From: Natronobacterium haloterrestre | GTDB lineage: Archaea > Halobacteriota > Halobacteria > Halobacteriales > Natrialbaceae | Direction: 5' to 3' | Length of the DNA stretch: 64,000 nucleotides | Assembly: GCF_900112205.1 (NCBI RefSeq) | Contig: NZ_FOKW01000011.1 | Location: forward strand, 1 to 64,000 | Shown: positions 13,809 through 41,303 of the stretch, piece by piece | Layout: each line of letters begins with the position of its first letter | Position numbering within the stretch: the stretch's first letter is position 1 | Notes under the pieces: model-generated | Database searches by the model: none | The model's input: the letters and a program-made list of their open reading frames with translations, nothing else | What the model was told of the DNA's origin: nothing | Translations under genes and position numbers: made by a program

Positions 13809-16800
13809 TGTTCGTTCACCCCCGCTGTCGGAATATAGTTCGGAACGCCATCGTCGATGATCGTCTCGTGGATCTCGTGGCGACGGTGATGGCGAACGTC
13901 ACACGCGTCGCGGTAGTCACAGTATTCGCACCCGGCCGAATCCGGACCGAGAATGGTCGGGATGAACGTCCCTTCCCGTACCGCCGTCGCAACTCGTTCG
14001 ATACGGTCACTCACCTCCTCGCGGAGGAACGCGTGGAACTCCTCACGGCTCTCGAATTCGAGGGTCCGATACCGACGCAACGGATCCTCCGTCTCGTGTC
14101 GGTAGTAACTCGCGTCGTCTTCTGCACCGATCGTGCCCGCCCAGTACGAGATCGACGAGTCAGGATCCACCTGATAATATGACGCTCCCACGGCCTCCCC
14201 GTCGAGCGCCTCTTCGGCCATTAGAAGGTACGCCGTGAGCTGGAACGCGTACCCGTCGAGTGTGTCCCCTGTACTCGGCGTGCTTCCCGTCTTGTAGTCG
14301 TACGCCACGAGGCCACCGTCCGCCGTGACGTCGATACGATCGATCTTCCCGTGAAGACTGACGGAACTTCCAGGAAGCTGAATCGGATCGGGCGAGATCA
14401 CGTTCGCATCGGGATCGTCGGCGTCGATCCCGACGTGCGCTTCGAAGTACGTGGGCTGTGCCCGCGTCGCCGACAGCGCCACCTCCGCATCGAGGAACCG
14501 CCGGAACAGCCCCGCGGGTCCGTCCGGATCGCCGTGAGCGTTCCCCTCTACTTCGAGTCCATCGAACAGCGATTCGATCCACGTTCCGTGGAACACTGTC
14601 GGATTCGCGTCCAGGTCGTCCAATCGCTCGACGGCGACGTCGTACAGAACGGCCTGTGCCTCCGAGAGTGTCGCGTCGGTAACCGATCGATGGCCGGCGG
14701 CGATCCACTCTCGGTAAAACGTTTCGAGCACGTCGTGGACGTAGTTCCCGGCGTCGAGCGCGTTGGCTTCGATCGTGATTTCCTCGTCGGCATCGATATC
14801 CAGAACCGAGTTCATGTAGAATTTGAACCCGCAGCCAGCGTACGTCTCCAGCCGACTCGGACTGAATGGCGCGTTCCTCTCGCGGAGCTCTCGAACGACC
14901 TCCGATGTCACGCGCCCATCGAACTTTCCGACCTCCGCTCTAGCACGTGCCGAGGCGAGTTTCACACCGCGTCGGAGACGAGACGTGACGTCGGCCTCGG
15001 GTATCTCGATGTCGAACGCATCGGCGTCGGCGTCGATCTGATCGTAATTGATCCCACCCGTTTCGAGCGCTTCCGCGAGCGATCGATGAACGTCTTCTCT
15101 GCTCGCCGGGGGAGCAACGTAGCGCTCCCTCGACTCCGTTTCAGTATCGCTCACCCGCTGGAGTTCCTTCAGAACGTCAGCCGGAACGTACGGGTCACCG
15201 TTCGCGTTTCGTTCGGGTCTGGACAGGTGGAGTTGAGCGTCACTGGCCAGTAACAGACCGAACGTGTACCGTGCCTGTCGGACGGGATCTGCGGACTGGA
15301 AATCCACGTGAGATTCGTTAAGTCTCCGCGTAAACGCGAGACGTCGAGCCGGCGACGGAGTATGATCGGTCGTCAATCCGGGGATGAACACGTGTGAATA
15401 GGGGTTCCACGCCGCCTCGGTCGGACTACACACCCGGACGCTTCCGGACGCCCTACCCACGGTGTTCTCGACCGTAACCTGTTCGAGCGCTCGTCGAAGC
15501 CCTTCAGCGTCATTTTCGCCGTCCATCGAGGCCAGAGAGTCACACACTTGCGCGGAAAGGGTGAGGGCGGACGTCTCACGGGCACGTTCTCGCTCGGAAA
15601 AGGGAAACTCGTCATCGAGTTCGAGACCACTCGTATCGATTGGAACACCGAGTGATTCGAACAATGCCGCTCGTGCGCGCCCATGATCAGAACGCTCGGC
15701 GAACCGCTCGCACGATGTTGCGACTGCCTCGACGATCTCGTCGGCAGGTGAGTCGAGATGCGATTGAAGCGCTTCGATCCGGGTCGATTCCAGTCGTCTC
15801 GCTTCCCGGATAATCTCGCTCACGCTACCATCGTCGGAAGGATTGACGAGCGGGTTTGCTAGCAGCCGGCAGAGCGGTTCCTGCCGATTCGGCTCAGTGC
15901 CGAGATCCAACGCGGCCTCGAACAGTTTCCCGGTCGTCGTCGCAAAGAACGGTCGCGGGAGATCGTAATTCACTGGGACGTCCGCTGCGTCGAGGGCTTG
16001 CCCGATCCGTTCCGCGTACGTATCTGAGTCATACACGGCGACACAGATTTCGTCGGGATCGACACCTTCGGCAATCAGCGAGCGTATCTCGCGGGCGATT
16101 CCACTCGTCTCGTGTCGAACTGTTGGGTACGATAGAGATTCGACGTCGAGTTCCGTGGTTCGTTCGGACGGTGACGGTGAGCCAAACCGATACAAACGTC
16201 TTGCGACATCGGTACTCGTGGACTCTACAGCGGTCGATGAATCATCTGATCGCTCAGGTGGCTCGAACCCGAGTGACTCGTACCACGTGTGAACCCGTGC
16301 AAGCGCTCGGTCAACGCCACTCGGAACCTCCGAGTCAGTCACCCGGGCGCAGACGACGGCGGTATCGTACGTCGAAGCGAGCGTGTCGATCAGATCCCGT
16401 TCGAGCGGCGACAATGTCTGGAATGCGCCGACGATCACGACGTCCGTGGCAGAGAGTACAGCAGAACACAACTCATCGCCATTCAGAATCACGTGCGCGT
16501 ATCGTTCACTCCGAAACGATTTGCGCTGCTTCAACGAATTCTCCCGAACGAAGTGCACTTCCTCAACAAACGTAGAGAGCGGTTCGACGAGATCGTCGAG
16601 CCCGACTTCGTTCAACCGCTCCACCACTGCCTCCGGCGTGTTTAGACCAGCGAACTCCAAAAGCGAGAGGAGCTCTTCGGCTTGCTCGATGAGTCCAACG
16701 GTTGGACTGTCTTCGGTGAATAACGGATTCTCGGGTGTATCGATACGCGTGAGAGCCGTTTCGACGATCCAACGGCGTTCTTCACTCGATACGTAGGTCG

Positions 16801-17044
16801 ATTCACCCTCGTTAGTCGATGCTTCGTACAGTCGGTCAACGATGCCGTCGAACGTCGTAAGGTCTACCGCCAATTTTGAGCCGTGTTCCATCCACGATTC
16901 GGCGACCGTCTCCCTATCCACCTCTGGCGGGCAGACATACATAACCGAATGCGGGAGCCCCGATGCTCTGTTTACGGCCCACTGAAATGCACTGCTTCTT
17001 CCTCGATGTGTGTTGGCGGAAGAGAACAGACAGCGAGTTGCCAT
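13805..17044 (-). CDS. AddB-like nuclease with iron-sulfur cysteines
   Basis: A 1079-aa AddB/RexB-type subunit. The N-terminal half resembles an inactivated SF1 helicase. The start (SSANTHRGRSS) has no proper Walker A, so it probably scans or binds DNA rather than acting as a motor. The C-terminal part is a PD-(D/E)xK nuclease with GKID (D902), DYKTG (D916, K918) and QLTAY. Cysteines C738, C1039, C1042 and C1048 (CEYCDYRDAC) match the 4Fe-4S staple of AddB nuclease domains. It is first in the operon with the AddA-like gene. Lack of an active helicase but presence of a nuclease is the normal AddB arrangement, which argues for a functional pair. Confidence 0.88.
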   Translation of the reverse strand: MATRCLFSSANTHRGRSSAFQWAVNRASGLPHSVMYVCPPEVDRETVAESWMEHGSKLAVDLTTFDGIVDRLYEASTNEGESTYVSSEERRWIVETALTRIDTPENPLFTEDSPTVGLIEQAEELLSLLEFAGLNTPEAVVERLNEVGLDDLVEPLSTFVEEVHFVRENSLKQRKSFRSERYAHVILNGDELCSAVLSATDVVIVGAFQTLSPLERDLIDTLASTYDTAVVCARVTDSEVPSGVDRALARVHTWYESLGFEPPERSDDSSTAVESTSTDVARRLYRFGSPSPSERTTELDVESLSYPTVRHETSGIAREIRSLIAEGVDPDEICVAVYDSDTYAERIGQALDAADVPVNYDLPRPFFATTTGKLFEAALDLGTEPNRQEPLCRLLANPLVNPSDDGSVSEIIREARRLESTRIEALQSHLDSPADEIVEAVATSCERFAERSDHGRARAALFESLGVPIDTSGLELDDEFPFSERERARETSALTLSAQVCDSLASMDGENDAEGLRRALEQVTVENTVGRASGSVRVCSPTEAAWNPYSHVFIPGLTTDHTPSPARRLAFTRRLNESHVDFQSADPVRQARYTFGLLLASDAQLHLSRPERNANGDPYVPADVLKELQRVSDTETESRERYVAPPASREDVHRSLAEALETGGINYDQIDADADAFDIEIPEADVTSRLRRGVKLASARARAEVGKFDGRVTSEVVRELRERNAPFSPSRLETYAGCGFKFYMNSVLDIDADEEITIEANALDAGNYVHDVLETFYREWIAAGHRSVTDATLSEAQAVLYDVAVERLDDLDANPTVFHGTWIESLFDGLEVEGNAHGDPDGPAGLFRRFLDAEVALSATRAQPTYFEAHVGIDADDPDANVISPDPIQLPGSSVSLHGKIDRIDVTADGGLVAYDYKTGSTPSTGDTLDGYAFQLTAYLLMAEEALDGEAVGASYYQVDPDSSISYWAGTIGAEDDASYYRHETEDPLRRYRTLEFESREEFHAFLREEVSDRIERVATAVREGTFIPTILGPDSAGCEYCDYRDACDVRHHRRHEIHETIIDDGVPNYIPTAGVNEQ

Positions 17045-20183: not shown

Positions 20184-20275
20184 TTGCTAACTCTTTCTTA
20201 ACTGAACGAAGCAATCCTACGCGAGAAGGCCGCGAACACTCGTCAGCGTACCGGTCACTAAATATACAAATAGTT

Positions 20276-20337
20276 TTTATACTGTATCTACTACCCAAAA
20301 CCGGCTGAAATCGCCCCCCGGTGTTGCAGCACCGGGG
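20276..20337 (+). promoter_or_regulatory. Promoter and leader hairpin of the seven-gene operon
   Basis: TTTATAC (20276-20282) is a good archaeal TATA box and predicts a start near 20305. The roughly 50-base leader would contain a perfect hairpin: CCCCGGTG (20316-20323), a six-base loop, and CACCGGGG (20330-20337). It ends 17 bases before the first ATG. No Shine-Dalgarno is visible. A leader with a stable stem suggests post-transcriptional control or an operator. Confidence 0.55.
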
Positions 20338-20354
20338 AACAGACGCTGCCAAGG

Positions 20355-20657
20355 ATGACAGCAAAAGACACTAATCGTGTCGGGAGTGATAACTCTGTCT
20401 CTCGGCCGGCCGAGGAGACGGAGATCGTTACCGAACACGATACACAAAGCAGACGAATTGTTCGCCACGCACGGAATAGCGGAGGCTCAACGACGCGGAG
20501 AGACCTCCTTATGAAGACCGATCTCTCCGACGATGAACTGGACGGTCTACTTAGACGGCTCGCAGATGGCGGTTACGTTGACCTGATCGGGGAAGCGGAA
20601 CGCGAAGCGATCGTGTTGACGTGTAGCGGGGAGCATCTCGCCGGGGGGTTCCGATGA
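20355..20657 (+). CDS. Small winged-helix protein (operon gene 1)
   Basis: A 100-aa protein with a disordered start and a C-terminal winged-helix-like segment: RRIVRHARNSGGSTTRRDLL, then DDELDGLLRRLADGGYVDLI and a short wing. The pattern is that of archaeal ArsR/MarR-like transcription factors without a sensor domain. It opens a seven-gene operon in which every gene overlaps the next, here by ATGA. Likely the regulator of the operon or a DNA-binding adaptor. Confidence 0.7.
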   Translation: MTAKDTNRVGSDNSVSRPAEETEIVTEHDTQSRRIVRHARNSGGSTTRRDLLMKTDLSDDELDGLLRRLADGGYVDLIGEAEREAIVLTCSGEHLAGGFR

Positions 20658-21028
20658 CCGGAATCGATCACGGATACGCCATCCCCATCGACCCCAATGA
20701 TGCGTTCAAAGCGGTCTCGAACAGCCGGCGACGTCGGATTCTACTCTCACTCGCCCAGTCGGAGGATCCGCTTACAGCCTCGGAGCTGGCCCTCGAAATC
20801 GCGGCCATCGAAAATCTCGTCGATCCAAGCGAAGTAACGAGCGAGCAGCGAACCCGAGTGTACATCTCGCTGATTCAATCACATTTGGAGACGTTGGATG
20901 AGTTGGGGGTTGCCGATTACGACGAACGTGCGAAGAAGGTCTCACCAACGGATGCTACACAACCGATCGCGCGCCACATCCGCGAGATCACGACCGCGTG
21001 CTACAAGCCGGAGGGTGCGTGCGAATGA
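20654..21028 (+). CDS. HTH protein (DUF7344-like; operon gene 2)
   Basis: A 124-aa protein with the haloarchaeal HTH signature DAFKAVSNSRRRRILLSLAQ at about residues 15-34, then a helix pair (ELALEIAAIENL) and a long helix (RVYISLIQSHLETLDELGVA) leading to a wing and YDERAKKV. This is the fold of the small haloarchaeal winged-helix proteins related to DUF7344. It overlaps both neighbours by four bases. Two adjacent HTH proteins ahead of nuclease genes suggest tight control of a potentially toxic system. Confidence 0.75.
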   Translation: MTGIDHGYAIPIDPNDAFKAVSNSRRRRILLSLAQSEDPLTASELALEIAAIENLVDPSEVTSEQRTRVYISLIQSHLETLDELGVADYDERAKKVSPTDATQPIARHIREITTACYKPEGACE

Positions 21029-21531
21029 CGAGAATTTCGGAAGAGAGACTAACCGACGAGATGGTCGTCCGGAATCTCACGTACCAGTTCGACCGGACAC
21101 TCCAGCTCCTGGAATGCCTCGCCGCTGATGGGCAGGAGGGCGATCCGGAAGTCTGCGTGATCGGATCGTACTCGAAGAAGAAACTTGAGGCCGCTGCCGA
21201 ACAGGCGCTGACTGGCTGGTCGCTTCCGGAGGATACGACATGTAGTCAGTGTGACCGCGGGCTCACGGCGCACAGGCCCGTAATGATTCGCGCCAGAAGA
21301 CCGCTGGAACTGCTGACGTGGTACCTCGATCAGTGCGTGTGCGACGAGTGCGACGTACCGCTCGATCCACGACCGGATGGACTGGACGTGATCGCTTCCG
21401 CGTGGATCGCTCCGTGGGATGATCCAGAGAGCAGAAGGCCACTGCTGTTGAGCGACGTCACGATTGAGGAATCGAGCGGAACCAACTACGAAACCGGTTC
21501 AAACGTGGAGGGGACCGATGGGACGCAGTGA
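21025..21531 (+). CDS. Cysteine-pair protein, unknown (operon gene 3)
   Basis: A 168-aa acidic protein with no family I recognise. Two cysteine pairs, CSQC (residues about 73-76) and CDEC (about 104-107), could bind zinc. The first 60 residues are helical and resemble a coiled or HTH-like segment, and the tail is disordered. I start at 21025, where ATG overlaps the preceding stop, rather than at the upstream in-frame ATG at 20998. It overlaps the HNH gene by 14 bases. Confidence 0.6.
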   Translation: MTRISEERLTDEMVVRNLTYQFDRTLQLLECLAADGQEGDPEVCVIGSYSKKKLEAAAEQALTGWSLPEDTTCSQCDRGLTAHRPVMIRARRPLELLTWYLDQCVCDECDVPLDPRPDGLDVIASAWIAPWDDPESRRPLLLSDVTIEESSGTNYETGSNVEGTDGTQ

Positions 21532-22300
21532 CGGATACCGTACGTTCCCCACCAGCGTTCGGAAACAGATCCTGAAACGGGACAATCATCAGTGTCAGGT
21601 CTGTGGGCGGCTCGGCCCCGAGCGCGGTGGAAACATCGACCTCGAAGCCCACCACATGCAGGAGGAACCGGAGTTGATCGATCGGGATCATCCCGACAAC
21701 GGAACGACGATGTGTATCCCATGTCACCACTTGGTGACCCACCGGACGACTACGGACGATCTTCCGTTCGACATCGACGACGTCGCCGCCGAAGTCAATC
21801 TTCTCTACAAGGACATCGAGATCCTCGTGTACCTGTACGAACACGGGCCAGCGACGACGAGCGAAATACGCGAGGCCACGAGTGGGTCTGCGCGAACGTC
21901 GATCATCGAGCGGCTCTGGACGCTCATGTCGATCGATCGGGATGTGGACTCGTTGGATGGTCCGCTGATCGACAAGGATCTCGACACAGACGAGTGGGGG
22001 TATCCCGACGACATCGGAAGGACCGTCCGCGGGCGAATCCCGGATAACGAAGAGGAATTGGTGGATCGGCTGCGGGACGAGTTGCTCCGACGGCTTCTCG
22101 ACGCCGGCGTGAGTCGATCGACGCTCGCGTTGTTCTTCGGTCGTTCTCGGCGAGCGACGTTCTACATCAGCAAGCGTGCGGGCGCAGTTCGCGTGCCGTT
22201 CGACGACGACGATCATCCTGGAGCGCTGATGGACGAGGACGAGTTCGAACGAGTGGTCGATGGAATGGGACGGTTGTTCGAAGAGATTGGTTCGAAATGA
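21518..22300 (+). CDS. HNH endonuclease fused to winged-helix domain (operon gene 4)
   Basis: A 260-aa protein. Residues 12-76 form an HNH nuclease with zinc cysteines C26, C29, C66 and C69 (CQVC and CIPC) and catalytic-site histidines H45-H46 (LEAHHM) and H75. Residues about 85-140 look like a winged helix (LYKDIEILVYLYEHGPATTS), and a further helical region near 170-230 includes RSTLALFFGRSRRATFYIS, a second HTH-like stretch. Fusion of an HNH nuclease to DNA-binding domains suggests sequence- or structure-directed DNA cleavage. I chose the ATG at 21518, since HNH homology begins shortly after. The last four bases overlap the next gene. Confidence 0.82.
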   Translation: MGRSDGYRTFPTSVRKQILKRDNHQCQVCGRLGPERGGNIDLEAHHMQEEPELIDRDHPDNGTTMCIPCHHLVTHRTTTDDLPFDIDDVAAEVNLLYKDIEILVYLYEHGPATTSEIREATSGSARTSIIERLWTLMSIDRDVDSLDGPLIDKDLDTDEWGYPDDIGRTVRGRIPDNEEELVDRLRDELLRRLLDAGVSRSTLALFFGRSRRATFYISKRAGAVRVPFDDDDHPGALMDEDEFERVVDGMGRLFEEIGSK

Positions 22301-23184
22301 CCGATAAGTATTCTATATTGACTTGTGTAGGAATGAGAACGAACCAATCGTGTCGGGGCCGACGGATGGGAGATGCATATGTACGTCACCAGGAACTGAC
22401 GAAGCGATTAACCCTTCACGTGGGGGACGAGGAACACTTGTTCGAGCGAGCACGTTGCTGTTCACAGCCGACAGAACTCGTGGTCGCACCAGTGGAACTT
22501 CACCGACGGAACGTTCAGCGCCGGCTTCGTGAACGAAACGCACCGAAGGACGCGTTCGCGTTCGATGACCCGGAAGGGGTGAGCAAAGGAATCCTGAGTG
22601 CCGCTGGCGAACCGAACAAAGCGATCGATCGTATCGACCGTCTCGCACAGGTCCGGTCCATACTGACTGAGCTGGCTGAAGGGGATATGGACCCCCTCTC
22701 GCTCCCGCCGGGAGTGTCGTCACACGATTCACGATACATCGAACAGATCCGTACAGAGGTGGAAGCGGTCACCAACTTCCATCCAGAACGAATCGAAGTG
22801 TGGAAACACGCGGCTGACGGTCTGTACGCGCCAATCGATTCGGAAACCGGAGAGATCCTCAATCTCGCGCTCGCCGTAGAACGTAGGCTCCAGAACCGAA
22901 CGGCGAAGGCGACCTCTGAGACGGACCTCGTACGGCGAGCGACACGAACCATCGTATCGTCGAGCGGCTCAGCGTGGACTGAAGCGTATCCGGAAATCGA
23001 ACGCGTCACATTGCTCGGTCTGAGCGGCCTCTCCGCACCGCACGCGGACTTGTTACACGCGCTGTTAGCGACGACGTCGATCGACGTTCACGTCCACTTC
23101 CGCGAGGGTTCGGGAGCATACCTGAAGAGGCGTATGCCCGCACTACTCGACATCGAGGGGCCTGGACAGGTGGTGTTCGAATGA
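22297..23184 (+). CDS. AddB-like N-terminal half (operon gene 5)
   Basis: A 295-aa protein that matches the order of elements in domain 1 of AddB/RexB inactivated helicases: an opening strand (TELVVAPVELHRRNVQRRLR), a segment equivalent to the FAR...L region (DDPEGVSKGILSAAGEP), IDRLAQVRSIL, and a closing Walker-B-like strand (RVTLLGLSGLSAPHADLLH). There is no Walker A, so no ATPase activity is expected. It overlaps the next gene by ATGA, and the two together rebuild an AddB-type helicase fold. The start at 22297 keeps the overlap with the HNH stop; ATG 22366 is an alternative. The assignment is by pattern only. Confidence 0.6.
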   Translation: MTDKYSILTCVGMRTNQSCRGRRMGDAYVRHQELTKRLTLHVGDEEHLFERARCCSQPTELVVAPVELHRRNVQRRLRERNAPKDAFAFDDPEGVSKGILSAAGEPNKAIDRIDRLAQVRSILTELAEGDMDPLSLPPGVSSHDSRYIEQIRTEVEAVTNFHPERIEVWKHAADGLYAPIDSETGEILNLALAVERRLQNRTAKATSETDLVRRATRTIVSSSGSAWTEAYPEIERVTLLGLSGLSAPHADLLHALLATTSIDVHVHFREGSGAYLKRRMPALLDIEGPGQVVFE

Positions 23185-24425
23185 CGATCTCAGAACGACT
23201 GAGACTCTCTCGCCCGTTCGATCCGCCAACGGTTCCGACAGTTGAACTCGTGTCGCCAACGCGGCGAGAAGAAGCTCGAAGCGCTATGGCGATCGTTGCG
23301 GAGCTGCGCGATCGGGACGTCCCGATCCGGGATATCGCAGTCGTCGCCCGAGATCTCGACTCGTACGAACAGTCGCTCTTCAGAGCAGCCATCCAATACG
23401 GAATTGCGCCCGTATTCTGGAGGCAACTCTACGTCACGAGGACGCGCCCGTACGCGCTCGTGGAATCAGTCTGTGAGGCACTCGACGCGGACGAACTCGA
23501 CCGGAGAACGCTGCTTCGTCCGCTCGAACATCGATGGGCGCCATCGAACGCGCCATCCGACGACTGGCCGGTCGATCCGGCGACGCTGTACCGAGTGAAA
23601 CACGCGCTTCCCCAGGGTGCACGCCCAACCGAGGAGTGGATTGAGGTGTTGGAAACGATCGACGACGCCGACGCCCGTTTCACGACGTTCGTAGAGTGGC
23701 TCGCCGACGTTCCGGAGCCGAACCCGGAGACCGTCACGTCTGTTCTCGGCGACGTCGTCGAAGCGTACGCCGATCACGGCCTCGCGGTGACGAGGGAGAG
23801 CGATTCGCCAGCGCTGCTCGATACCGAGACCGACGCACGGGCGGTCGTCCGCGGACGAACACTCGTCCAACAACTTCGCCACAAATTCGCGGATCGACTC
23901 CAAGAAGAAACGCTCGAACGATCCTGGGGCGATGTCGCCGATCTCGCCAACGTGATCGCCACCCAACGCCCGGGGCGACGCGAACACTCCAACGCTCGGG
24001 CGCTGGACATCCTCGAAGCTAACGACGTATGGATGCTTGACGTCCAGTACGTGATTGCCGTCGGGATGACCGCTGACGAGTGGCCACGAGCGACTGAATC
24101 GGTGGTTCCACCGGAGTTCCAGGAAGTCGTTCTCCGAGGCGACGATGACACCTCGAAGCTCGCTCCTCGAACGGCGTGGACGGACGGACGTGACCGCGAC
24201 CAGTTCCTGGACGTGTTCCGAGCTGCTGGAACGGGCGTAATACTCACGCGCCACACCCAGACGGTCGATGGTGACGACGTCCATTCGTCGCCGTTCCTCG
24301 ATCATCTCGATCTTCAGACGGTCGCCGAATCCCACCGTCAGCAACTGCTGAGCACGAATCGAGAGCTTCCCCCGGAAATACAGGACTTCCTCGAAGAACG
24401 AGCGGAGGCGACCGCCAATGAGTGA
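23181..24425 (+). CDS. AddB-like C-terminal helicase half, no nuclease (operon gene 6)
   Basis: A 414-aa protein like the second helicase domain of AddB. It opens VELVSPTRREEARSAMAIVA, followed by IAVVARDLDSYEQSLFRAAI, and has DVQYVIAVGMTADEWPR near residues 288-304, the place where AddB has its motif V-like strand. The protein ends soon after (FLEERAEATANE). The PD-(D/E)xK nuclease and the iron-sulfur cysteines found in the 1079-aa AddB of this island are absent. It is coupled by short overlaps to both neighbours. Probably a structural or DNA-scanning subunit for the helicase-nuclease encoded next. Confidence 0.7.
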   Translation: MTISERLRLSRPFDPPTVPTVELVSPTRREEARSAMAIVAELRDRDVPIRDIAVVARDLDSYEQSLFRAAIQYGIAPVFWRQLYVTRTRPYALVESVCEALDADELDRRTLLRPLEHRWAPSNAPSDDWPVDPATLYRVKHALPQGARPTEEWIEVLETIDDADARFTTFVEWLADVPEPNPETVTSVLGDVVEAYADHGLAVTRESDSPALLDTETDARAVVRGRTLVQQLRHKFADRLQEETLERSWGDVADLANVIATQRPGRREHSNARALDILEANDVWMLDVQYVIAVGMTADEWPRATESVVPPEFQEVVLRGDDDTSKLAPRTAWTDGRDRDQFLDVFRAAGTGVILTRHTQTVDGDDVHSSPFLDHLDLQTVAESHRQQLLSTNRELPPEIQDFLEERAEATANE

Positions 24426-27400
24426 GCCCAACGACGATCCGATTCGGCTGAAGGGCGCACAACGCGAGATTCGAGGTGCCTACTTCGACAACGAGACGGG
24501 ATTGTTCACTCTGAATTGCGTCCCCGGTTCGGGAAAATCGGTGGTCGCACACCACCTTGCTGCGGAGGACGTTCTTCGTCGGTACGTCGCAGGCAGTCCG
24601 ACGCCGGAGCAGCACGTCGCGGTCATCTCGTTCAACCGGGACGAGGCCGCCGCGATCGTTCCCGAAATCTGTGACCGGCTTCGAACGATCGTCGAACATG
24701 AACTCGTTCCGGCGGCAACCGACGTGAGCGACGACGAACTGGAGTATTTGATCCAGCGCGTTCGTCAAGCGCCGTACGTCGGAACCATCGACAGTCTCCT
24801 TCGAGGCGTGCTCGTAGAGATCGCATCAGATGCAGGGTTCGAGGAGGTACCCGCAATCGGGAACGAGGCACTCCTGACGCAGGTCCACGTCGAGTGTTAC
24901 GAGACACTTCGTGACGAACCTCAGTATTCGACTCGCCTCGAACAGTTGGAGGCTGCCTACCCCGACGGGGAGTACGACGACAGTGTCGCCGAAATGCTCG
25001 TCCGGGCCGTCGAGTACTGTCGTGACCAGCAACTTACGACGTCAGCGTTCCGGTCAGAACTCGAACTGACGCGGGAGTCGGTGTACGCGGAAGGCGAACC
25101 AGAGGCGTTCCGCGATGTCGTCGCAGCAGTCGAACGTTGCGTTGATGACGAGAGTATCGGGGAACGAGTCCGCGAGGCAGTCGAAGGTGAGGATCGAGAC
25201 CGTGTCGTAGAGGCGGATCGAACCCTGTACGAAGCGTGGTGTGCGCGTATCGACGACTTCTGTACAGTACTCTCGGCGTACCGAGATGCCTATCGAGAAG
25301 CGATACGAGAGCACGGCGTCGTTTCACACACCGACGTCGCGTTTCTTGTGGCCAGGTATTTCGACGACGCTGCGGACGCAACAGCGTCTCTCGAAGTGTT
25401 CGACGAGATCGACGAACGACATCGGGAGCGTATTCTCCAAAGGCATCGTGCCCGATTGAGAAGCGTGATCATCGACGAGGCGCAGGACGTTTCTGCGATC
25501 CAACACGCAGCGCTCGCTCACCTCGTCACGCCCGAGACGCGCGTCTGTGCGGTCGGTGACGCTCTACAGGGGATCTATCTCTGGCGGCATGCAGATCCGT
25601 CCTGGTTCGAAACGGCGACGACGAGCGGAACGTACCTCGGCATTGACTGGGACACGCACGAGAATCGGACCGCGACGACGACGTACCGATGCGTTCCGGA
25701 CGTCGCCACGGCGATCAACTCGATTTCCGAACCGGTGTTCTCGGACCCGTCGCGCGGTGATCTCGGTACCCTCGATACGACGTTCTCTCCGCTGGAAGCT
25801 GCGCGTGACGGGAGCGACGAGACGGCGGTGCATATCTCCTCGTTCACCGGCGTCGGTACCCCCGGATCAGCAGACTGGGCGAACCCCGGTGACGGCGTCG
25901 GCGAGGCGAATATACTGGCGACGCATCTCTCGCAGGGACTTGTCGACGGGACGTTCGCTGACGATACTGGCACCCCATTGGGGATCACTGTCCTCTTTCG
26001 GAAGCGGGCACGAATGAGCGATTATGAGGCGGCATTCGCCGCAGAGGGACTCCGCGTGCGGAACGCGAGTGAGTCACTGTTCGACTGCCCCGCAGTCAGT
26101 ACGGTGTTCGACGTTTGTGACTGGCTCGTTCAACCAGGATCTCCTGACCGAACGAGAACACTCATCACCGAATCCGCTCTGGGAATCGGCACACTGGAAG
26201 GTGCCTTCTCCGATCACGACTGGCGTCTCAACGGTGTACTCGGCGACGACGACATTCAGTCGGACCTCACCGAGGCACAACGACGCACGCTAACCGGTCT
26301 CGTCCATCTTCGTGATCAGCGCGACACGTCCGAAATGCGACCTGCCGGGGCGTACGTCGAAGACGTCGTCGAGGCGCTTTCGCTCAGAGCGGATTCGAAC
26401 GGCTACTTCACGGACACTGATTCCGAACAGCGCGTCGCAAACCTCGACGCCCTCGTCGAGACAATCGCTCAGTGGGTAGGTGACGATCACTCCACTCTGG
26501 ACGACCTGATCGAACTGGTCGCTCCGTTTCGAGAAGAACCGGATGACGGCCCACCGCAACCGAGCACGGCGGGTTCCGAATACGACGTGGAATTCCAAAC
26601 AGCGCATCGATCGAAAGGCGACCAAGACGATGTCGTCGTCATCGCAGATCCAGGATTTGACCTCTGGGCACCCGGTCCGCACAATCAGCGGTTCATCGCG
26701 CAAGGGTCCATCGTGGGCCTCGCCCCGCCGGAGAACGTAAATCTCCCTGAAGAGATCACCATCCCACCGTTCGAAGGTGGCCTGTTCGATCCGGCGAATA
26801 GCTGGGATCGTGATGCCGGACTTCGATGGGTGAGCGCATTGTGGTGCGATTTGGTCACCGATTCAGCGGGAAGAGACGGTCTCGTCGGTACCGAACGGCT
26901 CTGTCAGGTCGCCAGAAACGAGCGCGCTGAAGGATGGAGACTGCTATACGTTGCACTCACCCGTGCGCGCGATCACCTCGTTATCCCGCTTCCACGGTCA
27001 GTTCTGACTACTGACCGGCATCGTGATCGGTGGCTCGATACCATTCGAGATGAACTCAACTATCAGGGAGGGACTGACTCGTATACGCTGTCGGTTCCTG
27101 ATACGGATCCGAACGGCGACTCGATCGAAATCGGCGTTAATGACGTCGATCTATTCGCGCGACGATCAGATGTGCGAGAGCCTACGCCGGACACGGACGT
27201 CGCCGTTTCTCAACCTCGTCGTGATCGACTCGACCCGTGGATTCCGAGATTCGTCAACCCTAGTACGATGTATCCGCTGACCGAGGGTCAGGATGAGTAT
27301 CTCATCGCTCACCTCCTCGGAGACTCGCTTCACACCGAGACGAACGACGTTCCCGACGACCTCCCCTTAGAGTTCGATCGATTAGGTCCCGGTGAAGTCG

Positions 27401-27960
27401 GGACGTGTCTACACGACGTCCTCACCGAGTTAGTAGAGTGTGACGTTCCTGAAAACTCCTTACGAAGGATGAACGACGACGTTCGGCGAGTGTTCGACGA
27501 GAAGGTCAAGGAGATGGCACCCAAGATCGGGTCTGACGAACGCGAGGGATTGTGGGCGTTCTTTGCGGTGGTTCTAGACGACTTCCTCGCGTCAGACCTC
27601 TGGGAGCGAATCCGTGATCCTCAAACCATTACAACCGTCGAACAGCCGATCGACGGACTCAGCACGATCGATGGCGTCGAGATCGAAATTCATGGCGAAG
27701 CGGATTTCGTCGTCGAACTGCCCTCGGGTGAACGGCACGTGACCGACGTGAAGATTACACTGACGGACCAAACGCCGGAGACACGACATCGGTACGAACT
27801 CCAGGTGGCAGCCTACTCGTACCTCTTTGAACAGCAGGAGTGCTCGACAAAACCCGTGAATCGGGCAGTGGAGACCTTCGGGGTTGAGCGTGACACAATC
27901 AAATCAGGGTGGCCGTCGGAGATTATCGAACGGAGACTTGCCTCTCTGGTTCGACAGTAA
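24418..27960 (+). CDS. UvrD helicase with C-terminal PD-(D/E)xK nuclease (operon gene 7)
   Basis: A 1180-aa SF1A helicase with intact motifs: Walker A CVPGSGKSVV (about residues 38-47), DEAQDVS, VGDALQGIYLWRHADPSW, FQTAHRSKGDQDDVVV and LLYVALTRARDHL. Near the C-terminus GEADFVVEL, VTDVKIT and LQVAAYSYLF supply the three parts of a RecB-type nuclease site. It is AddA-like in layout but clearly a different lineage from the 1309-aa protein at 9.9-13.8 kb. It is the only predicted motor and, with the HNH protein, one of two nucleases in this operon. It overlaps the preceding gene by eight bases. Confidence 0.88.
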   Translation: MSEPNDDPIRLKGAQREIRGAYFDNETGLFTLNCVPGSGKSVVAHHLAAEDVLRRYVAGSPTPEQHVAVISFNRDEAAAIVPEICDRLRTIVEHELVPAATDVSDDELEYLIQRVRQAPYVGTIDSLLRGVLVEIASDAGFEEVPAIGNEALLTQVHVECYETLRDEPQYSTRLEQLEAAYPDGEYDDSVAEMLVRAVEYCRDQQLTTSAFRSELELTRESVYAEGEPEAFRDVVAAVERCVDDESIGERVREAVEGEDRDRVVEADRTLYEAWCARIDDFCTVLSAYRDAYREAIREHGVVSHTDVAFLVARYFDDAADATASLEVFDEIDERHRERILQRHRARLRSVIIDEAQDVSAIQHAALAHLVTPETRVCAVGDALQGIYLWRHADPSWFETATTSGTYLGIDWDTHENRTATTTYRCVPDVATAINSISEPVFSDPSRGDLGTLDTTFSPLEAARDGSDETAVHISSFTGVGTPGSADWANPGDGVGEANILATHLSQGLVDGTFADDTGTPLGITVLFRKRARMSDYEAAFAAEGLRVRNASESLFDCPAVSTVFDVCDWLVQPGSPDRTRTLITESALGIGTLEGAFSDHDWRLNGVLGDDDIQSDLTEAQRRTLTGLVHLRDQRDTSEMRPAGAYVEDVVEALSLRADSNGYFTDTDSEQRVANLDALVETIAQWVGDDHSTLDDLIELVAPFREEPDDGPPQPSTAGSEYDVEFQTAHRSKGDQDDVVVIADPGFDLWAPGPHNQRFIAQGSIVGLAPPENVNLPEEITIPPFEGGLFDPANSWDRDAGLRWVSALWCDLVTDSAGRDGLVGTERLCQVARNERAEGWRLLYVALTRARDHLVIPLPRSVLTTDRHRDRWLDTIRDELNYQGGTDSYTLSVPDTDPNGDSIEIGVNDVDLFARRSDVREPTPDTDVAVSQPRRDRLDPWIPRFVNPSTMYPLTEGQDEYLIAHLLGDSLHTETNDVPDDLPLEFDRLGPGEVGTCLHDVLTELVECDVPENSLRRMNDDVRRVFDEKVKEMAPKIGSDEREGLWAFFAVVLDDFLASDLWERIRDPQTITTVEQPIDGLSTIDGVEIEIHGEADFVVELPSGERHVTDVKITLTDQTPETRHRYELQVAAYSYLFEQQECSTKPVNRAVETFGVERDTIKSGWPSEIIERRLASLVRQ

Positions 27961-28022: not shown

Positions 28023-29462
28023 ATGACGAACCCGAATGCCCTTCCATCGGCCGATAAAGCCCTCAATACGGACGCCTACTTCAGGCTCTATCAGGGCGCG
28101 CTCAGGATTGAGGATCCCAGTGCTCGGCTCGCCGCCTGCTACATCATCCTGCTCGCTGGCCGACTTGGCCTCCGCCTGCAAGAGATTCAGCACCTTCGTG
28201 AGGAGTGGATCGACTGGCGGCGCGGCGAAATCAAGATTCCAAGCTACGACCCCTGCGGCTGCAAACGGTGTTGGCTCACTGCCCGCGACATCTGGGGCCG
28301 TCGCGGCCTATCGGAACTCCAGGAGAAAGGCGAGTGGGCTGACGACGTTAAGTGGCGAGACCTGAATGCAGACGCCCGCGATACCGTCGTTGAGAAGGCG
28401 AGCTACTGTCGGCCGGAGACGCTAGAGGACATCCTCTATAGTGAGCGGTGGGAGCCGAAATACAACCGGTCAGCACGCACCGTCCCGTTCGGGTGGTCTG
28501 AACGCATCACTGCATGCCTCATGACCTTCTTCGACCACAATGACTGCCTTCAACACCAGCGGTACTCGGTGAGCCGGTTGATTACGAAAGCTGCAGAAAA
28601 CGCTAACGGCTTGGACCCTGATGAGCTGTCTCCCCATCCGCTTCGCGCAACTGGTCTCACGTTTCTCGCGGATATCTCGGTTGACCCGAAGATGTTGTGC
28701 GACCTTGCGGGTTGGCAGGATATTCAGACTGCTGCCCGGTACCTGCGGGAGAGTGGCCGCATTACCAGCCACAAGGTGTATTCGCTGTTAGGAAAGGAAA
28801 ACGAAGCGCCACCGGTCGTGCCAGCCGAGCCCGAGTATCGGTTTCCAGTCGTGATGAATCCGATCCCATTCGAGGGAGAGCCGTTCGCGCCGATCACGCC
28901 AGACGGATCTCGGTTTGACCGGGATGTCCGGCTTGCCCGCCACCACGAGCAACGTGACACTCCGATTCGGCTTGTACATCCGCGCAAAGCTTCACTCCCC
29001 TACAACTATGCCGGCTTCCCTGATGTGGACGAGCTAAGTTACGACCCCCGGAAACACGATCTCCCTGGCCATTTGGATTGGGATTCTGACCGCGTTCAGT
29101 TCGATGATGGCCGGCCCGTTACGACAGCGACGACGCTTGCAGACCTTGCAGACCCACACCGTGTGGATCCAAGCGAGCATACGCCACCGGAAGAGTACCG
29201 TGCGGAGACAGTGGACACACGGCTGTCAGACTATTTCGACGAGGATCACACCAACGACAGGATGGCAGCGGCGACGTTCACGGGCGTTGCCGCATTTACG
29301 GCTAGTGCTGTTGGGGAACGGCTTGGTCGAGAGTGGACCGAATACTGGACGGTTGGCGAGGGCGCTGCCCCAGATGCGGGACGACTGGCGAAAGGGATGG
29401 CTGCGTATCTCGTGCTGGTTGTGTGTCCGCTGTCGTTAAATCTCATTCTTCTCTTTCAGTAG
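28023..29462 (+). CDS. Tyrosine integrase/recombinase
   Basis: A 479-aa phage-type integrase. Catalytic residues appear in order: R51 (GLRLQEIQHL), H205-x2-R208 (HPLRATG), W231 in the H/W position and nucleophile Y240 (ARYLR). The catalytic domain is thus confined to about residues 20-260. A long C-terminal extension follows, ending in a hydrophobic stretch (AYLVLVVCPLSLNLILLF), so the protein may be membrane-associated, which is unusual for an integrase though seen in haloarchaeal relatives. It lies 62 bases downstream of the UvrD-nuclease gene on the same strand, at the island edge nearest secY, and may have brought in the island. No attachment site was found beside it. Confidence 0.82.
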   Translation: MTNPNALPSADKALNTDAYFRLYQGALRIEDPSARLAACYIILLAGRLGLRLQEIQHLREEWIDWRRGEIKIPSYDPCGCKRCWLTARDIWGRRGLSELQEKGEWADDVKWRDLNADARDTVVEKASYCRPETLEDILYSERWEPKYNRSARTVPFGWSERITACLMTFFDHNDCLQHQRYSVSRLITKAAENANGLDPDELSPHPLRATGLTFLADISVDPKMLCDLAGWQDIQTAARYLRESGRITSHKVYSLLGKENEAPPVVPAEPEYRFPVVMNPIPFEGEPFAPITPDGSRFDRDVRLARHHEQRDTPIRLVHPRKASLPYNYAGFPDVDELSYDPRKHDLPGHLDWDSDRVQFDDGRPVTTATTLADLADPHRVDPSEHTPPEEYRAETVDTRLSDYFDEDHTNDRMAAATFTGVAAFTASAVGERLGREWTEYWTVGEGAAPDAGRLAKGMAAYLVLVVCPLSLNLILLFQ

Positions 29463-30595: not shown

Positions 30596-32089
30596 TTACT
30601 CTTTGCCAAACATCTGGCGCATCATCGGATGCATCTCCATCATCTGCTCTTCCGCGATCTCCTCGTAGAGCTTGTAGGTGATGGAGACTGCCAGCAGCAG
30701 TCCGGTCCCGGTGACCGAACCGATGGTACCGAGCATGTTCGCCATGACGGCGAGCAGGCCGACCAGCGCGCCGCCGATGACGGTCACCTGCGGGATGTAC
30801 CGCTCCATGACCTTCTCGATGACGCCGACGTTCTGTCGGAAGCCGGGGATCTGCATCCCGGAGTTCTGGATCTGCTTTGCCGTCGCTTCCGGCCCCATGT
30901 CCGTCGTCTCGACCCAGAAGATGGCGAAGACCGCGCCCCCGACGATCATGAACGTCAGGTCGAAGGCGACGCGAATCAGCACCATCCAGACCTCGGCCGT
31001 GATCTCGCCGGTCCACCACATCCAGTCGTCGGGGCTGTAGATCGGGGAGACGTAGTAGAACAGCCCGCTGACGGGCTGGCTCTGGTCGTAGACCCCGAGC
31101 CACGGCAGTTCCTGGCCGAACAGGATGATCGGGCCGGCCTCACGGTCCGGACCGAGGGTGAACATGATCTGTCCGATGAACTGAACGTTCGCCTGCAGCG
31201 CGCGAACGAGGATCATCGGCAGGACGCTCGCGTAGATGAGCTTCACGGGGAAGCGACCGCGAGCACCCTTGACCCTGGCGTGGCTGAGCGGAATCTCGAC
31301 GCGGACCGACTCCGCGTAGACGACGATCCCGAAGATCAGGACCGTCGTGAACAGCGCGAGGAGCTGTCCGCCGTCCTGCGAGAGCAGCACGAACAGCCCA
31401 TCACCGGTGAGCACCGAGCCGACGGCGACCTCGTCGGTGAAGAGGATCTGGTACCAGCTGTAGAAGAACCCCTGAGGCGTCGGCGAGATCAGCCCAGAGA
31501 CGAGTCGCTGGCTCACGCCGGCGACGATGAACAGGCCGATACCGCTGCCGACCCCCCACTTGCTGACGACCTCGTCCATGTACAGGAGGAGGACACCGCC
31601 AGCGAAGATCTGGAGGAACATTAGTACCTGGACCTGCGAGCCGACGAACTCGAGCCCACCGAGGACTAACTGATCCTGGGCTGGCAGGAAGCCGCCGGCG
31701 AACACCATCGGAAGGGCGGTCAGCGCCGTCATGACGACGACCAGCAGCTTCTGGAGGCCCTGGTAGAGGACCTGGTCCCGAGGGTCGTCGGTGTCGAGCC
31801 CGAGCAGGTTCGCACCGCCGAGCAACTGCATGACGATGCTCGCCGTGACGATCGGTCCGATACCGACCTGCAACAGCGAGCCCTGTGACCCGGCGAGGAT
31901 CGCGCGGAACTCTCCGAAGAGGTCTTGCCCCCCGGCCGCGCCGAGGATCTCGATGTTCGTCAGGAAGAAGTACAACACGAGGATCCCCGCCGTCCACGCC
32001 AGCTTGCGCTTGAAGGGGACGTGCCCCTCCGGACGCTTCACTGCGGGCATCCGCGTTAGGACCGGTTCAGCGGCTTCCTTCCATCCCAT
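30596..32089 (-). CDS. secY: Protein translocase subunit SecY
   Basis: The 497-aa channel subunit of the Sec translocon. About ten hydrophobic helices are visible, starting with WTAGILVLYFFLTNIEIL near residue 30. The plug and pore region follows (GGQDLFGEF, then GIGPIVTASIVMQLLGG). Conserved cytoplasmic loops include PLSHARVKGARGRFPVKLIY. The N-terminus KEAAEPVLTRMPAV is typical of archaeal SecY. It is the last gene of the ribosomal operon, three bases after L15. In related genomes adenylate kinase usually follows secY; here the accessory island does. Confidence 0.96.
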   Translation of the reverse strand: MGWKEAAEPVLTRMPAVKRPEGHVPFKRKLAWTAGILVLYFFLTNIEILGAAGGQDLFGEFRAILAGSQGSLLQVGIGPIVTASIVMQLLGGANLLGLDTDDPRDQVLYQGLQKLLVVVMTALTALPMVFAGGFLPAQDQLVLGGLEFVGSQVQVLMFLQIFAGGVLLLYMDEVVSKWGVGSGIGLFIVAGVSQRLVSGLISPTPQGFFYSWYQILFTDEVAVGSVLTGDGLFVLLSQDGGQLLALFTTVLIFGIVVYAESVRVEIPLSHARVKGARGRFPVKLIYASVLPMILVRALQANVQFIGQIMFTLGPDREAGPIILFGQELPWLGVYDQSQPVSGLFYYVSPIYSPDDWMWWTGEITAEVWMVLIRVAFDLTFMIVGGAVFAIFWVETTDMGPEATAKQIQNSGMQIPGFRQNVGVIEKVMERYIPQVTVIGGALVGLLAVMANMLGTIGSVTGTGLLLAVSITYKLYEEIAEEQMMEMHPMMRQMFGKE

Positions 32090-32092
32090 ACG

Positions 32093-32602
32093 TTAGTCCT
32101 CGTTCTGTTCGTCTTCGTCGTCTTCGGCGTCGGCCGCTTGCTCCTCGGCGCGCTGCTTTCCGCGCTCGGAGAGAACGGCTTCGCCGCCGGCCTCCTCGAG
32201 TTTCTCCTGTGCGGCCGCGGAGAACGCGTCGGCCGTGACCTCGAGCTGGTTGCGGACCTGTCCGGAACCGAGGACCTTCACGACGTCGACCTCGTGGCCG
32301 TCCTCGACGATGTCGCGCGCGTCGAGACGGTAGCCACCGTCGTCGAGCTCTTCGGCCTGCCCCTCGGCAGCGTAGAGGATCGCGTCCTCGTCGAGCTTCT
32401 GGACGTCGATCTCCGCGACGTCTTCGCGGATGTCCTGGGGACGCTTGAAGCCGTGCTTGCCCTTCGGTTCGTAGTTGTGGAACTCGTGTTTGCTACGGCC
32501 GGCGCGACCGCGGCCGCCACGGTGGCCCGCTCCGCGTCGGTTCTTGTGGGAGCCACCGCCGTGCGTGCGCGATCCGCGCTGGCGTCGTTTTTTGCTCGTC
32601 AT
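32093..32602 (-). CDS. rpl15: Ribosomal protein L15 (uL15)
   Basis: A 169-aa large-subunit protein. The basic, Gly-rich N-terminus (MTSKKRRQRGSRTHGGGSHK, then GRAGRSKHEF) is the rRNA-binding extension of L15. The globular domain contains VKVLGSGQVRNQLEVTADAFS. The tail is very acidic (EEQAADAEDDEDEQNED), a halophile adaptation. It starts two bases after the L30 stop and runs into secY. Confidence 0.96.
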   Translation of the reverse strand: MTSKKRRQRGSRTHGGGSHKNRRGAGHRGGRGRAGRSKHEFHNYEPKGKHGFKRPQDIREDVAEIDVQKLDEDAILYAAEGQAEELDDGGYRLDARDIVEDGHEVDVVKVLGSGQVRNQLEVTADAFSAAAQEKLEEAGGEAVLSERGKQRAEEQAADAEDDEDEQNED

Positions 32603-32604
32603 GG

Positions 32605-33072
32605 TTATCGCATCGATTCTAAGAGGTCGTTGATTTCCTCGGTTGTATGCTTTCCGAGTTGGCCGCCCTCGACGGTCGGCTTCTTGATCCCGTCGTGGCC
32701 GCCACGTGGCGGGTGCAGTCGCAGCGTCGGCGACAGCCCCTCGTCACGAAGCGTCGTCTCCTCGGCGAGCAGCGCCTCGGCGAGCGCGTCGAAGTCGTCG
32801 TACTCCGTGTTCTCGGCGAGCCACTCCTCGTCGACGTCGGCCTGCCGGCCCTCGAGGGGCTCGGAACGGCGCTCGAGCAGCGTCGCGAGCACGTCGGCGC
32901 TCGGTTCGCCGTGGGCGACGTAGTCGTTGACCTTCGTCACCATCCCCTCGTACGTATCCGTCTCGGGGACGAGCGCACAGTGGTTGACGCCGTGAATGTT
33001 CAGCATCTCCAGGGTGTCCTGGACCTTCTGCTGACGGTTCACTTCGCCACGAACCTGCACGACTGCCTTCAT
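32605..33072 (-). CDS. rpl30: Ribosomal protein L30 (uL30)
   Basis: A 155-aa archaeal/eukaryal-length L30. The ferredoxin-like core starts [20 protein letters not shown], with the [15 protein letters not shown] segment near the C-terminus that marks the archaeal version. The ATG overlaps the S5 stop by four bases, implying coupled translation. Bacterial L30 has only about 60 aa, so the extra C-terminal domain identifies the archaeal lineage. Confidence 0.96.
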
Positions 33073-33749
33073 TGTTCGCTCACCTCGGCTTCCACGTCGG
33101 ATTCGGCTCGCTCGCTACCCTCACGGAGACCGCCCGGGTGACGCGACTGGGATGCGTTTTCCAGGGCGTTGAACGTCGCTTTCGCGAGGTTCACCGTGGT
33201 TCGGGTGTTGCCGTGGCTCTTGGTCCAGGCGTTCTCGATGCCGGCCAGCTCGAGCACCGCGCGAACGGTGTCGCTGGCGGCCAGCCCGAGCCCTTCGGGG
33301 GCAGGGATGACCTCGACCTCGACGGAGCCGGCCTTCCCCTTCGTCCGTCGGGTCAGCGAGTGGGGCCGGTCCGAGCGGTCCTCCCAGGAACCGGAGCCGC
33401 GCGGGACCTTGATCATGTTCAGCTTCGCGATGCCGATCGCCTTCTGGATGGCAGAGCCGACCTGATCGTCCCGACCTTCCGCGTAGCCGACGTAGCCGTC
33501 GCGGTTGCCCACGACGACGACGCAGCGGAACTTGACGCGGCGCCCGGAGTCGGTCATGCGCTGGACCATGTTGATGTCCAGCACCTCGTCTTCTAGCCCC
33601 GGCAGGAGCTGGTCGACGAGTTCGGGCTCTTTCAGCGGCAGGCCCGAGTTGAGGGCGGCCTCCATCGTGTCGATGTCGCCCTCCTGGACCTTCCGGCCGA
33701 GACGGGTGACGGGCTGCCAACCGTCGTCGTTGTAGTCGTTTGCGCTCAT
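33069..33749 (-). CDS. rps5: Ribosomal protein S5 (uS5)
   Basis: A 226-aa small-subunit protein with the double-stranded RNA-binding S5 domain ([20 protein letters not shown]) and the C-terminal domain ([20 protein letters not shown], then [20 protein letters not shown]). An acidic extension of about 15 residues ends the protein. It overlaps L18 by four bases and L30 by four bases. Confidence 0.97.
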
Positions 33750-34294
33750 TCTAGGATCGCCTCTCGTACCTCGTCGAAGTGTTCAGGGAGTTCGGTTGCG
33801 TCGAACTCGCCGCTGTACAGCGGCTCGTCGAGCTGTTCGGCGTACTCGGCGATGTGTTCGCCGCGAGTACGCGACCAGTCCGCGAGCACCGCGTCGTTGT
33901 GCGGGATCTCGAGGCCAGCGTCGATCGCGCCCTCCTGGACGGCGAACACCTTGTTGCCGGGCGTCGCCGTGTTGAGGCCGATGTCGAGGACTGCTTCCTC
34001 GAGGCCCGCTTCGACGGCGCGCGTGCCGGCCAGCAGGCCGGTCAGGTACGCCGCAGAAATGTTACTCGTGGGTGCGTCCCAGCCGTACTCCTCGAGATCG
34101 CTCGAGTGTGCGCTCGCGAGCGTCTCGTCGCCCTGTGGTCCGGGGACGATCAGCTGCGCCGTGGTGTGCTTGTTGCTCTTTCGAGCGACGAGGCGGGGCT
34201 TACCCGACTTCAGCAGGCGCAACCTCTGATGGTAGTCCGTCCGGACCTCACGGCGACGCCGCATCGGAACGTTGTATCGTGGTCCTGTCGCCAT
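33746..34294 (-). CDS. rpl18: Ribosomal protein L18 (uL18)
   Basis: A 182-aa 5S rRNA-binding protein with the conserved start [20 protein letters not shown] and [19 protein letters not shown]-terminal acidic region is of archaeal type. Its first base coincides with the last base of L19e. With L5 it forms the 5S RNP of the central protuberance. Confidence 0.97.
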
Positions 34295-35485: not shown

Positions 35486-35488
35486 CTA

Positions 35489-36022: not shown

Positions 36023-36024
36023 GA

Positions 36025-36417: not shown

Positions 36418-36418
36418 A

Positions 36419-38277: not shown

Positions 38278-38281
38278 GGTT

Positions 38282-39614: not shown

Positions 39615-39621
39615 TTGTGTA

Positions 39622-41296: not shown

Positions 41297-41303
41297 ACGA
41301 TGA

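Follow-up and report, generated by a model that had tools for sequence, protein, structure and literature searches.

The operon at positions 20355-27960 of the Natronobacterium haloterrestre DNA analyzed here (a stretch of 64,000 nucleotides, hereafter the window) is modular, being composed of a core of three genes (g5-g6-g7), a portable leader-g1-g2 unit, and two optional genes, g3 and g4. The core is well supported, by sequence and by structural modeling, as a predicted AddA-like helicase-nuclease with an AddB-like partner that has no nuclease and is split at a flexible linker. The operon is probably an AddAB-type machine in a previously undescribed form, and its leader probably represents a new class. 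ORF analysis revealed seven genes on the + strand, all starting with ATG and with successive overlaps of 4, 4, 14, 4, 4 and 8 bases; together with the promoter, these bear out a sequence-only reading of seven overlapping same-strand genes behind one promoter and a leader hairpin. Gene order was kept in independent genomes at 40–65% identity, indicating that the arrangement is not due to chance, and the conserved order that the same reading had proposed to look for in other archaeal genomes does recur. The window and Halorubrum saccharovorum each have all seven genes. The seven had been taken as a single unit, which holds only in part: in most genomes the core occurs alone, the leader-g1-g2 module accompanies integrases at other loci, and either g3 or g4 may be missing.

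The largest protein, encoded by g7 (24418-27960, + strand), is an AddA-like UvrD helicase with a RecB-type nuclease, as previously proposed, and the assignment is upheld by Pfam and NCBIfam matches and by motif conservation. It matched the Pfam families UvrD-helicase and PDDEXK_1 (E = 3.1e-9), and contained intact GSGKS (at residue 37), DEAQ and DVK motifs. The helicase motifs were kept in seven sequences, in which the nuclease residues H999, D1096, D1110, K1112, Q1129 and Y1133 were also invariant, indicating an SF1 motor with Walker A and B motifs and, in the same polypeptide, a RecB-type PD-(D/E)xK nuclease. Neither g5 (22297-23184, +) nor g6 (23181-24425, +) had a Pfam match. Their homologues are, however, a single protein in ten related loci (L026, L075, L076, L078-L080, L082, L083, L085 and L086), g5 corresponding to the N-terminal half and g6 to the C-terminal half. 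Among solved structures, AddB was the best fit by coverage to the model of a fused relative (the L079 protein against AddB 3u4q_B, TMq 0.56, E = 5e-12), and the model also fits AdnB and RecC, suggesting an AddB/RecC fold for the partner. The point at which g5 and g6 are split corresponds to a low-confidence linker in the model, residues 283–309 of the fused protein. Together, g5 and g6 (709 aa) stop short of the C-terminal nuclease of AddB and have neither the DxK motif nor the CxxC, whereas the canonical AddB in the window has both, and its sequence similarity to g5/g6 in profile comparison was weak. The proposed AddB kinship of g5 and g6 is therefore drawn from fold, position and fused relatives, which support well the earlier suggestion that the two ORFs jointly represent an inactivated AddB-like helicase.

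Strong matches to the core were found in about 62 of 391 genomes, all of them haloarchaeal, and g6 was detected in 72 of the 391 at E<=1e-3, with a patchy distribution. Fifteen plasmid records carried the core, and it was not found in viral contigs or in phage and viral collections. Core copies often stand alone among ordinary genes, as many of those in Halorubrum do, and most are without the leader-g1-g2 module. The g7 tree mixes genera and, taken by itself, requires each module state to have changed two or more times.

Both optional genes encode proteins with paired cysteines. The product of g3 (21025-21531, +; 168 aa) is zinc-ribbon-like with two CxxC pairs, and all four cysteines were kept in the four sequences aligned; the gene is present in the window, L021/L072, L022/L049, L023/L059 and L041. 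The 260-aa product of g4 (21518-22300, +) is an HNH nuclease by sequence. Its match to the Pfam HNH family was weak (E = 0.0015, just under the Pfam cut-off), and conserved residues identified an HNH motif with zinc-binding cysteines, the zinc and catalytic positions (H45/H46, N61, H70/H71/H75 and two CxxC) being kept in four homologues. Of the HNH-winged-helix fusion proposed earlier, the HNH part thus stands, and the winged helix was unconfirmed, the structure model being too poor for use beyond the HNH region. A relationship to IscB was rejected, since the match was limited to the HNH region and had no RuvC part. HNH families are often mobile and g4 is missing from most relatives, as might be expected of a selfish homing nuclease that entered the operon by chance. 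However, g4 occupies one position in four divergent loci (the window, L038, L041 and L053) and is conserved above its neighbors by a steady margin, as constraint predicts rather than recent transfer, and locus L071 has a different HNH-like gene between a weak leader-like match and the core. A recent homing insertion is accordingly disfavored, and we consider it improbable.

Upstream of the genes lies a haloarchaeal promoter (TACAAATAGTTTTTATA, starting at 20265; BRE/TATA-like, TACAAATAGTTTTTATAC, 20265-20282, +), which is conserved at the same distance in every leader of the operon subfamily. It is followed by a structured leader element (20298-20407, +) that covers the 5' UTR together with the opening codons of g1. 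Hairpin 1 (20316-20337, +) is formed by CCCCGGTG and CACCGGGG, and hairpin 2 (20345-20362, +), whose loop holds the g1 start codon, by GCTG and CAGC. The leader scored 117 bits against covariance model R1 and had an MFE z of -3.7; 96.8% of pair cells were standard and five pairs showed double changes (0 of 500 shuffles). In hairpin 1, one pair covaries from C-G to U-A (U-A in 15 of 36 sequences), while hairpin 2 has compensatory changes at four of five pairs, its stem being replaced by CTTCG..CGAAG in L071. The first 18 codons of g1 were conserved at the nucleotide level, with 92% synonymous-codon identity compared to 37–60% later in g1 and about 0.40–0.48 in g2 and g6. This conserved, covarying structure upstream of genes is that of a putative cis-regulatory leader, and no match was found in Rfam 15 at the gathering score, with only chance-level hits (E>=1), suggesting that the leader is probably a new structured RNA class absent from Rfam. 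The sequence-only reading had included a leader hairpin, without the conserved structured leader or its ties to proviruses and plasmids.

The two genes that follow the leader encode a 100-aa winged-helix-like protein with a weak DUF7343 match (g1, 20355-20657, +) and a DUF7344 HTH protein (g2, 20654-21028, +; Pfam E = 1.9e-21), a family for which no paper was found in the literature searched. The leader was found in 51 of 292 genomes, with g2 downstream in nearly all leader loci examined, and the leader-g1-g2 module often lies beside integrases in tailed proviruses and plasmids, including pNRC100. In proviral and plasmid copies a recombinase directly follows g2. The tyrosine integrase adjoining the operon (28023-29462, +; Phage_integrase, E = 1.7e-9) has 86–87% nucleotide identity to its counterparts next to the operon at L072 and L046, and its relatives include the recombinase that follows g2 on a Natrinema thermotolerans plasmid (E = 1e-19). 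Because a relative of this integrase directly follows g2 elsewhere, the nuclease genes look like cargo inserted into the separate, portable leader-g1-g2 module. The downstream integrase was kept in only five of ten leader-bearing operon loci, once as a fragment. The island is missing at the congener site, where synteny breaks at 30596.

The surroundings of the operon in the window are rich in defense genes, with CBASS (CD-NTase and Cap15) at 8086-9616 and a canonical AddAB at 9879-17044; these neighbors and the integrase had been named previously and were all confirmed. The upstream toxin-antitoxin pair named with them is plausible, and its match was weak (UPF0175, E = 0.03). PADLOC 2023 identified no full system in the operon, only partial GajB, Csa3 and generic matches, and neither PADLOC nor the papers searched held a described system with this gene set, in agreement with the earlier view that none is known. 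A CRISPR-like or guide-RNA repeat array near the operon was also sought, and none was found. Of the proposed helicase-nuclease defense complex with an added HNH effector, the helicase-nuclease with its inactivated, split AddB-like partner is well supported, and the defense part is no more than plausible. The flanks of relatives (109 proteins sampled from 38 loci, counted without a matched background) showed no enrichment of PADLOC families, none of which matched more than two of the proteins. The operon looks like a DNA-destruction cassette controlled by a mobile element.

We propose that g7 would act as motor and nuclease, and that g5 and g6 would form an inactive RecC/AddB-like scaffold of two chains that has lost its nuclease domain. 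The complex would engage DNA ends, then unwind and degrade the DNA, and the HNH protein, where present, would most simply open entry points for it by nicking or breaking DNA. In the N. haloterrestre lineage, the core may have become cargo within an integrative element's regulatory cassette, in the order folded leader RNA (hairpin 2 with the g1 start), HTH regulators g1 and g2, and tyrosine recombinase. The leader may gate translation of the first cistrons and g1/g2 may (auto)regulate transcription, so that the conditions controlling the element would also release a nuclease that is otherwise kept off, with the breakdown of competing viral or plasmid DNA as the likely gain. We give this account of a haloarchaeal RecBCD/AddAB-like machine, taken as a whole, an even chance of being correct. 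More tentatively, the leader may be a new RNA switch class of haloarchaeal integrative elements, in whose sister subfamily the start-codon hairpin could give way to a long-range stem incompatible with it (AGCACGATTC/GAATCGTGCT versus GCTG/CAGC), and which may have been recruited here, together with its two HTH genes, as the control of a RecBCD-like nuclease directed against rival DNA. Palindromes that serve as DNA sites covary too, and HTH proteins and integrases adjoin the leader, so it is conceivable that these are g1/g2 operators or recombinase arm sites. However, loop lengths vary (about 8–12 nt in hairpin 2, and far longer for hairpin 1 in the second copy of L055), a variation hardly compatible with a dimer operator, and the element lies at transcript distance after the TATA box, holds the start codon and reaches into the g1 coding region; we regard DNA sites as unlikely, though not negligibly so.

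The lack of defense-gene enrichment in the flanks of relatives and the many lone copies count against the defense account and suit repair equally well. AddAB and RecBCD relatives are repair enzymes, and core-only copies in Halorubrum hold stable positions beside metabolic genes, so the core could be mainly an accessory repair and recombination machine that processes double-strand-break ends, with the element-linked copy merely carrying it along. Yet a canonical AddAB is already encoded in this genome, the core is patchy, with copies on plasmids and in integrase-bearing islands, and some copies have an added HNH nuclease; this alternative is a serious one, if somewhat unlikely. The machine might instead serve the integrative element in recombination, excision, replication or exclusion of rivals, as many viruses use recombination enzymes. 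The core is flanked by the leader-g1-g2 module on one side and a tyrosine recombinase on the other, and that module is proviral in other genomes, which would fit such a role. However, neither a virus nor a provirus was found to carry the core, and most core copies have no such module, leaving this role distinctly unlikely.

If the proposed account of a mobile-element-controlled nuclease is correct, it would extend the RecBCD-like machines to an archaeal form whose scaffold is split and has no nuclease, and would show a route by which a helicase-nuclease comes under the control of a mobile element. The leader could clarify the control of haloarchaeal proviruses and integrative plasmids, and since this RNA candidate is present on the Halobacterium salinarum plasmid pNRC100 as well, its function is testable in a standard laboratory archaeon. 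Among known systems, AddAB (RexAB) shares with the operon an AddA-like SF1 helicase with a C-terminal RecB-type nuclease and an AddB-fold partner with a dead helicase. However, the partner here is divided over two genes and has neither the C-terminal nuclease nor the Fe-S cysteines that define AddAB proper, and the operon adds the optional HNH and zinc-ribbon-like proteins and the RNA-leader/HTH module. Like RecBCD, it has a single active nuclease, located on the motor, and an inactive RecC-like scaffold, but there is no RecD, the scaffold consists of two chains without the C-terminal nuclease-like domain, and sequence similarity is only distant. The AddB-like model also matches the AdnB fold of mycobacterial AdnAB, in which AdnA and AdnB each have helicase and nuclease domains, unlike the partner described here. 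GajB UvrD-like models from Gabija match g7 across the helicase motifs only, and the operon has no GajA OLD-family nuclease. UvrD-Cas4-like fusions near restriction systems combine a UvrD helicase with a PD-(D/E)xK nuclease in putative defense contexts, but accompany Mod/Res or Dcm genes, with no AddB-like split partner described (PMC5704561). An AddB-like protein with an inactivated helicase domain has also been reported (PMC10910872); it shares that inactivation with the operon's partner, but keeps its nuclease and has an interspaced repeat array, whereas the partner here has no nuclease and no array lies near the operon.

The operon (20355-27960) consists of seven plus-strand genes, g1 to g7, all starting with ATG (the g4 start was placed at 21518 by analogy with homologues) and overlapping successively by 4, 4, 14, 4, 4 and 8 bases. 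Upstream of g1 lie a leader and a single haloarchaeal promoter (TACAAATAGTTTTTATA, starting at 20265), confirming the layout proposed in the sequence-only reading. Its assignments of g7 as a UvrD helicase with a PD-(D/E)xK nuclease (Pfam UvrD-helicase, E=2.3e-16; PDDEXK_1, 3.1e-9) and of g3 as a cysteine-pair protein (two CxxC pairs, no Pfam match) were also borne out. The HTH gene g2 matched DUF7344 (E=1.9e-21) and g4 matched HNH (E=0.0015), while winged-helix-like g1 gave a weak DUF7343 match only and g5 and g6 had no convincing Pfam match. PADLOC returned only generic helicase matches, to g7.

Genes g5, g6 and g7 remain together across relatives and form the core of the system. At E<=1e-3, g6 matched 72 of 391 haloarchaeal genomes, strongly (E<=2e-86) in about 62 of the 72, as counted from the result table. 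Searches with g7 and g6, based for named genomes on short conserved motifs, revealed further core relatives in 50 named loci and 15 plasmids, and none in phage and viral collections. On plasmid pHG3 of Haloferax gibbonsii, the gene immediately after the core encodes a LAGLIDADG homing endonuclease (L213, 12965-13948).

In several loci (L026/L079, L075, L076, L078, L080, L082, L083, L085 and L086), g5 and g6 are a single protein of about 670-990 aa. The predicted structure of the 754-aa fusion in L079 (mean pLDDT 73) retrieved UvrD-type helicases first by Foldseek E-value, and coverage was best for AddB chains 3u44_B and 3u4q_B (TMq 0.55-0.56), followed by AdnB and RecC; the g5/g6 split point maps to a low-confidence linker (residues 283-309). 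Sequence profile comparison with canonical AddB was weak. The canonical AddB encoded in the window has a DYK nuclease motif as well as Fe-S-type cysteines; both are absent from g5 and g6, which also lack a P-loop. The fused relatives, fold match and missing motifs thus uphold the earlier view of an inactivated AddB-like pair. Because every RecB-type nuclease residue is intact in g7, as are both Walker motifs (A and B), and its partner has no nuclease motif or P-loop, the core looks more like RecB+RecC than AddA+AddB, except that the scaffold is encoded as two separate pieces.

The remaining genes vary between loci: g1 and g2 occur together in 9 of the 50 named loci, g3 in 4 and g4 in 3 (Haloferax massiliensis L038, Halorubrum saccharovorum L041 and Haloferacaceae MAG L053). 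The conserved order holds for g5-g6-g7; the full set was found only in the window and L041, and L041 carries the integrase too. Where g4 is missing, g3 or g2 directly precedes g5, and HNH-bearing and HNH-less states are intermixed in the g7 tree. Nucleotide identity of g4 exceeds that of g5-g7 by a steady margin (82 versus 69-74% in L038, 77 versus 68-69% in L041, 70 versus 65-67% in L053; g4 amino acid identity 88, 83 and 66%), which suggests that g4 is under constraint. In L071, a 410-aa HNH-like gene (6361-7593) lies between the core and a weak leader-like element (6211-6295; E=0.03-0.09) with different complementary stems (GAAGTG/CACTTC, CTTCG/CGAAG).

The leader runs on into g1 in all 10 distinct operon loci with g1. 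At shared amino acids in eight g1 genes, codon choice agreed 92% of the time within codons 1-18, compared with 60, 45, 37 and 38% in later parts, 45-48% in g2 and 40-44% in g6; the g1 start is kept in L022/L023, though g1 is shortened to about 52 aa. The fold predicted for the window leader is more stable than those of shuffled sequences (z -3.7). A search of Halobacteria with its covariance model (R1) located the leader in 51 of 292 genomes; the genome that contains the window has one further copy (G000:C17:44717, E=8e-16; L178 8718-8829). Among 36 distinct leaders, standard pairing filled 96.8% of pair cells, in an alignment built with, and so biased toward, the model's structure; five pairs were changed on both sides, whereas shuffles averaged 1.5 and every slid version fell far short. 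Hairpin 2 (20345-20362; GCTG..CAGC) contains the g1 start codon. In a second subfamily, some hairpin 2 bases are also part of a long-range stem, AGCACGATTC/GAATCGTGCT, so the two pairings are mutually exclusive; 95.6% of cells were paired across the two stems tested, with moderate covariation. The leader had no Rfam match, and is probably a new RNA class.

Nearly all leader copies examined precede a g1-like gene and a DUF7344 gene, and in several a tyrosine integrase ends 120-450 bases upstream. Two such contigs, both present in IMG/VR, have genes for a tail tape-measure protein or for baseplate proteins, indicating that they are tailed proviruses. The leader also follows a site-specific integrase on Halobacterium salinarum pNRC100 and pHS4 and on a Natrinema thermotolerans plasmid. 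The pNRC100 (L214, 3988-4095) and pHS4 (L215) copies are unannotated, each directly followed by an overlooked g1-like ORF, plus a DUF7344 gene. On the N. thermotolerans plasmid and in L180, a second recombinase, related to the window integrase (28023-29462, +; E=1e-19), comes directly after g2. Since the nuclease genes fall exactly between g2 and the integrase in the window, L021/L072, L041 and L046, they are best read, from this gene order, as cargo inserted into the control module of an integrative element. Downstream of the L178 leader are a g1-like gene, two DUF7344 genes, three unknown proteins (279, 250 and 347 aa) and a MarR-like gene; the g1-g2-250aa-347aa-MarR set, whose middle proteins have no Pfam match, recurs in about 13 leader loci. 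Convergent leaders flank the operon in Salinarchaeum L055 (8370-8476, +; 15352-15465, -) and a 3.9-kb region in L179/L217 (L179 10753, -; 6888, +); these pairs may be signs of regulatory units that invert or have been duplicated.

In the congener genome G001, sequence in common with the window begins only at 30596 at the operon site, placing the operon in a genus-variable island adjoining a ribosomal-protein operon, probably the gene run 30596-45369. Rfam identified an L4-Archaeoglobi ribosomal protein leader at 44921-45020 (-). The CBASS genes and second, canonical AddAB noted earlier were both found in the window, along with a type IIG/DrmMI-like methylase and a truncated SNF2 helicase. Near its start (80-1177 and 1762-5874), the truncated SNF2/DrmD-like helicase, a TBP gene and the methylase suggest a DISARM-like remnant.

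What the sequence comparisons show is a conserved core with a split scaffold, the optional genes g3 and g4, a structured leader followed by the two HTH genes, and a tie to integrases. The core would load onto DNA ends and degrade DNA, g4 may open entry points for it, and the leader and HTH proteins would keep expression conditional. Many Halorubrum core copies are isolated beside ordinary genes, and no PADLOC family had more than two matches (raw counts) among 109 flanking proteins of related loci. The benefit could be defence, competition between elements or repair. We favor, at roughly even odds, elimination of foreign DNA by the copies tied to an integrative element, and consider repair rather unlikely. 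As the sequence-only reading anticipated, no described system with this gene set was found in PADLOC, NCBIfam or the open-access literature searched; the operon machine is best viewed as a variant of AddAB/RecBCD-type machines, joined to a leader of a probable new RNA class.
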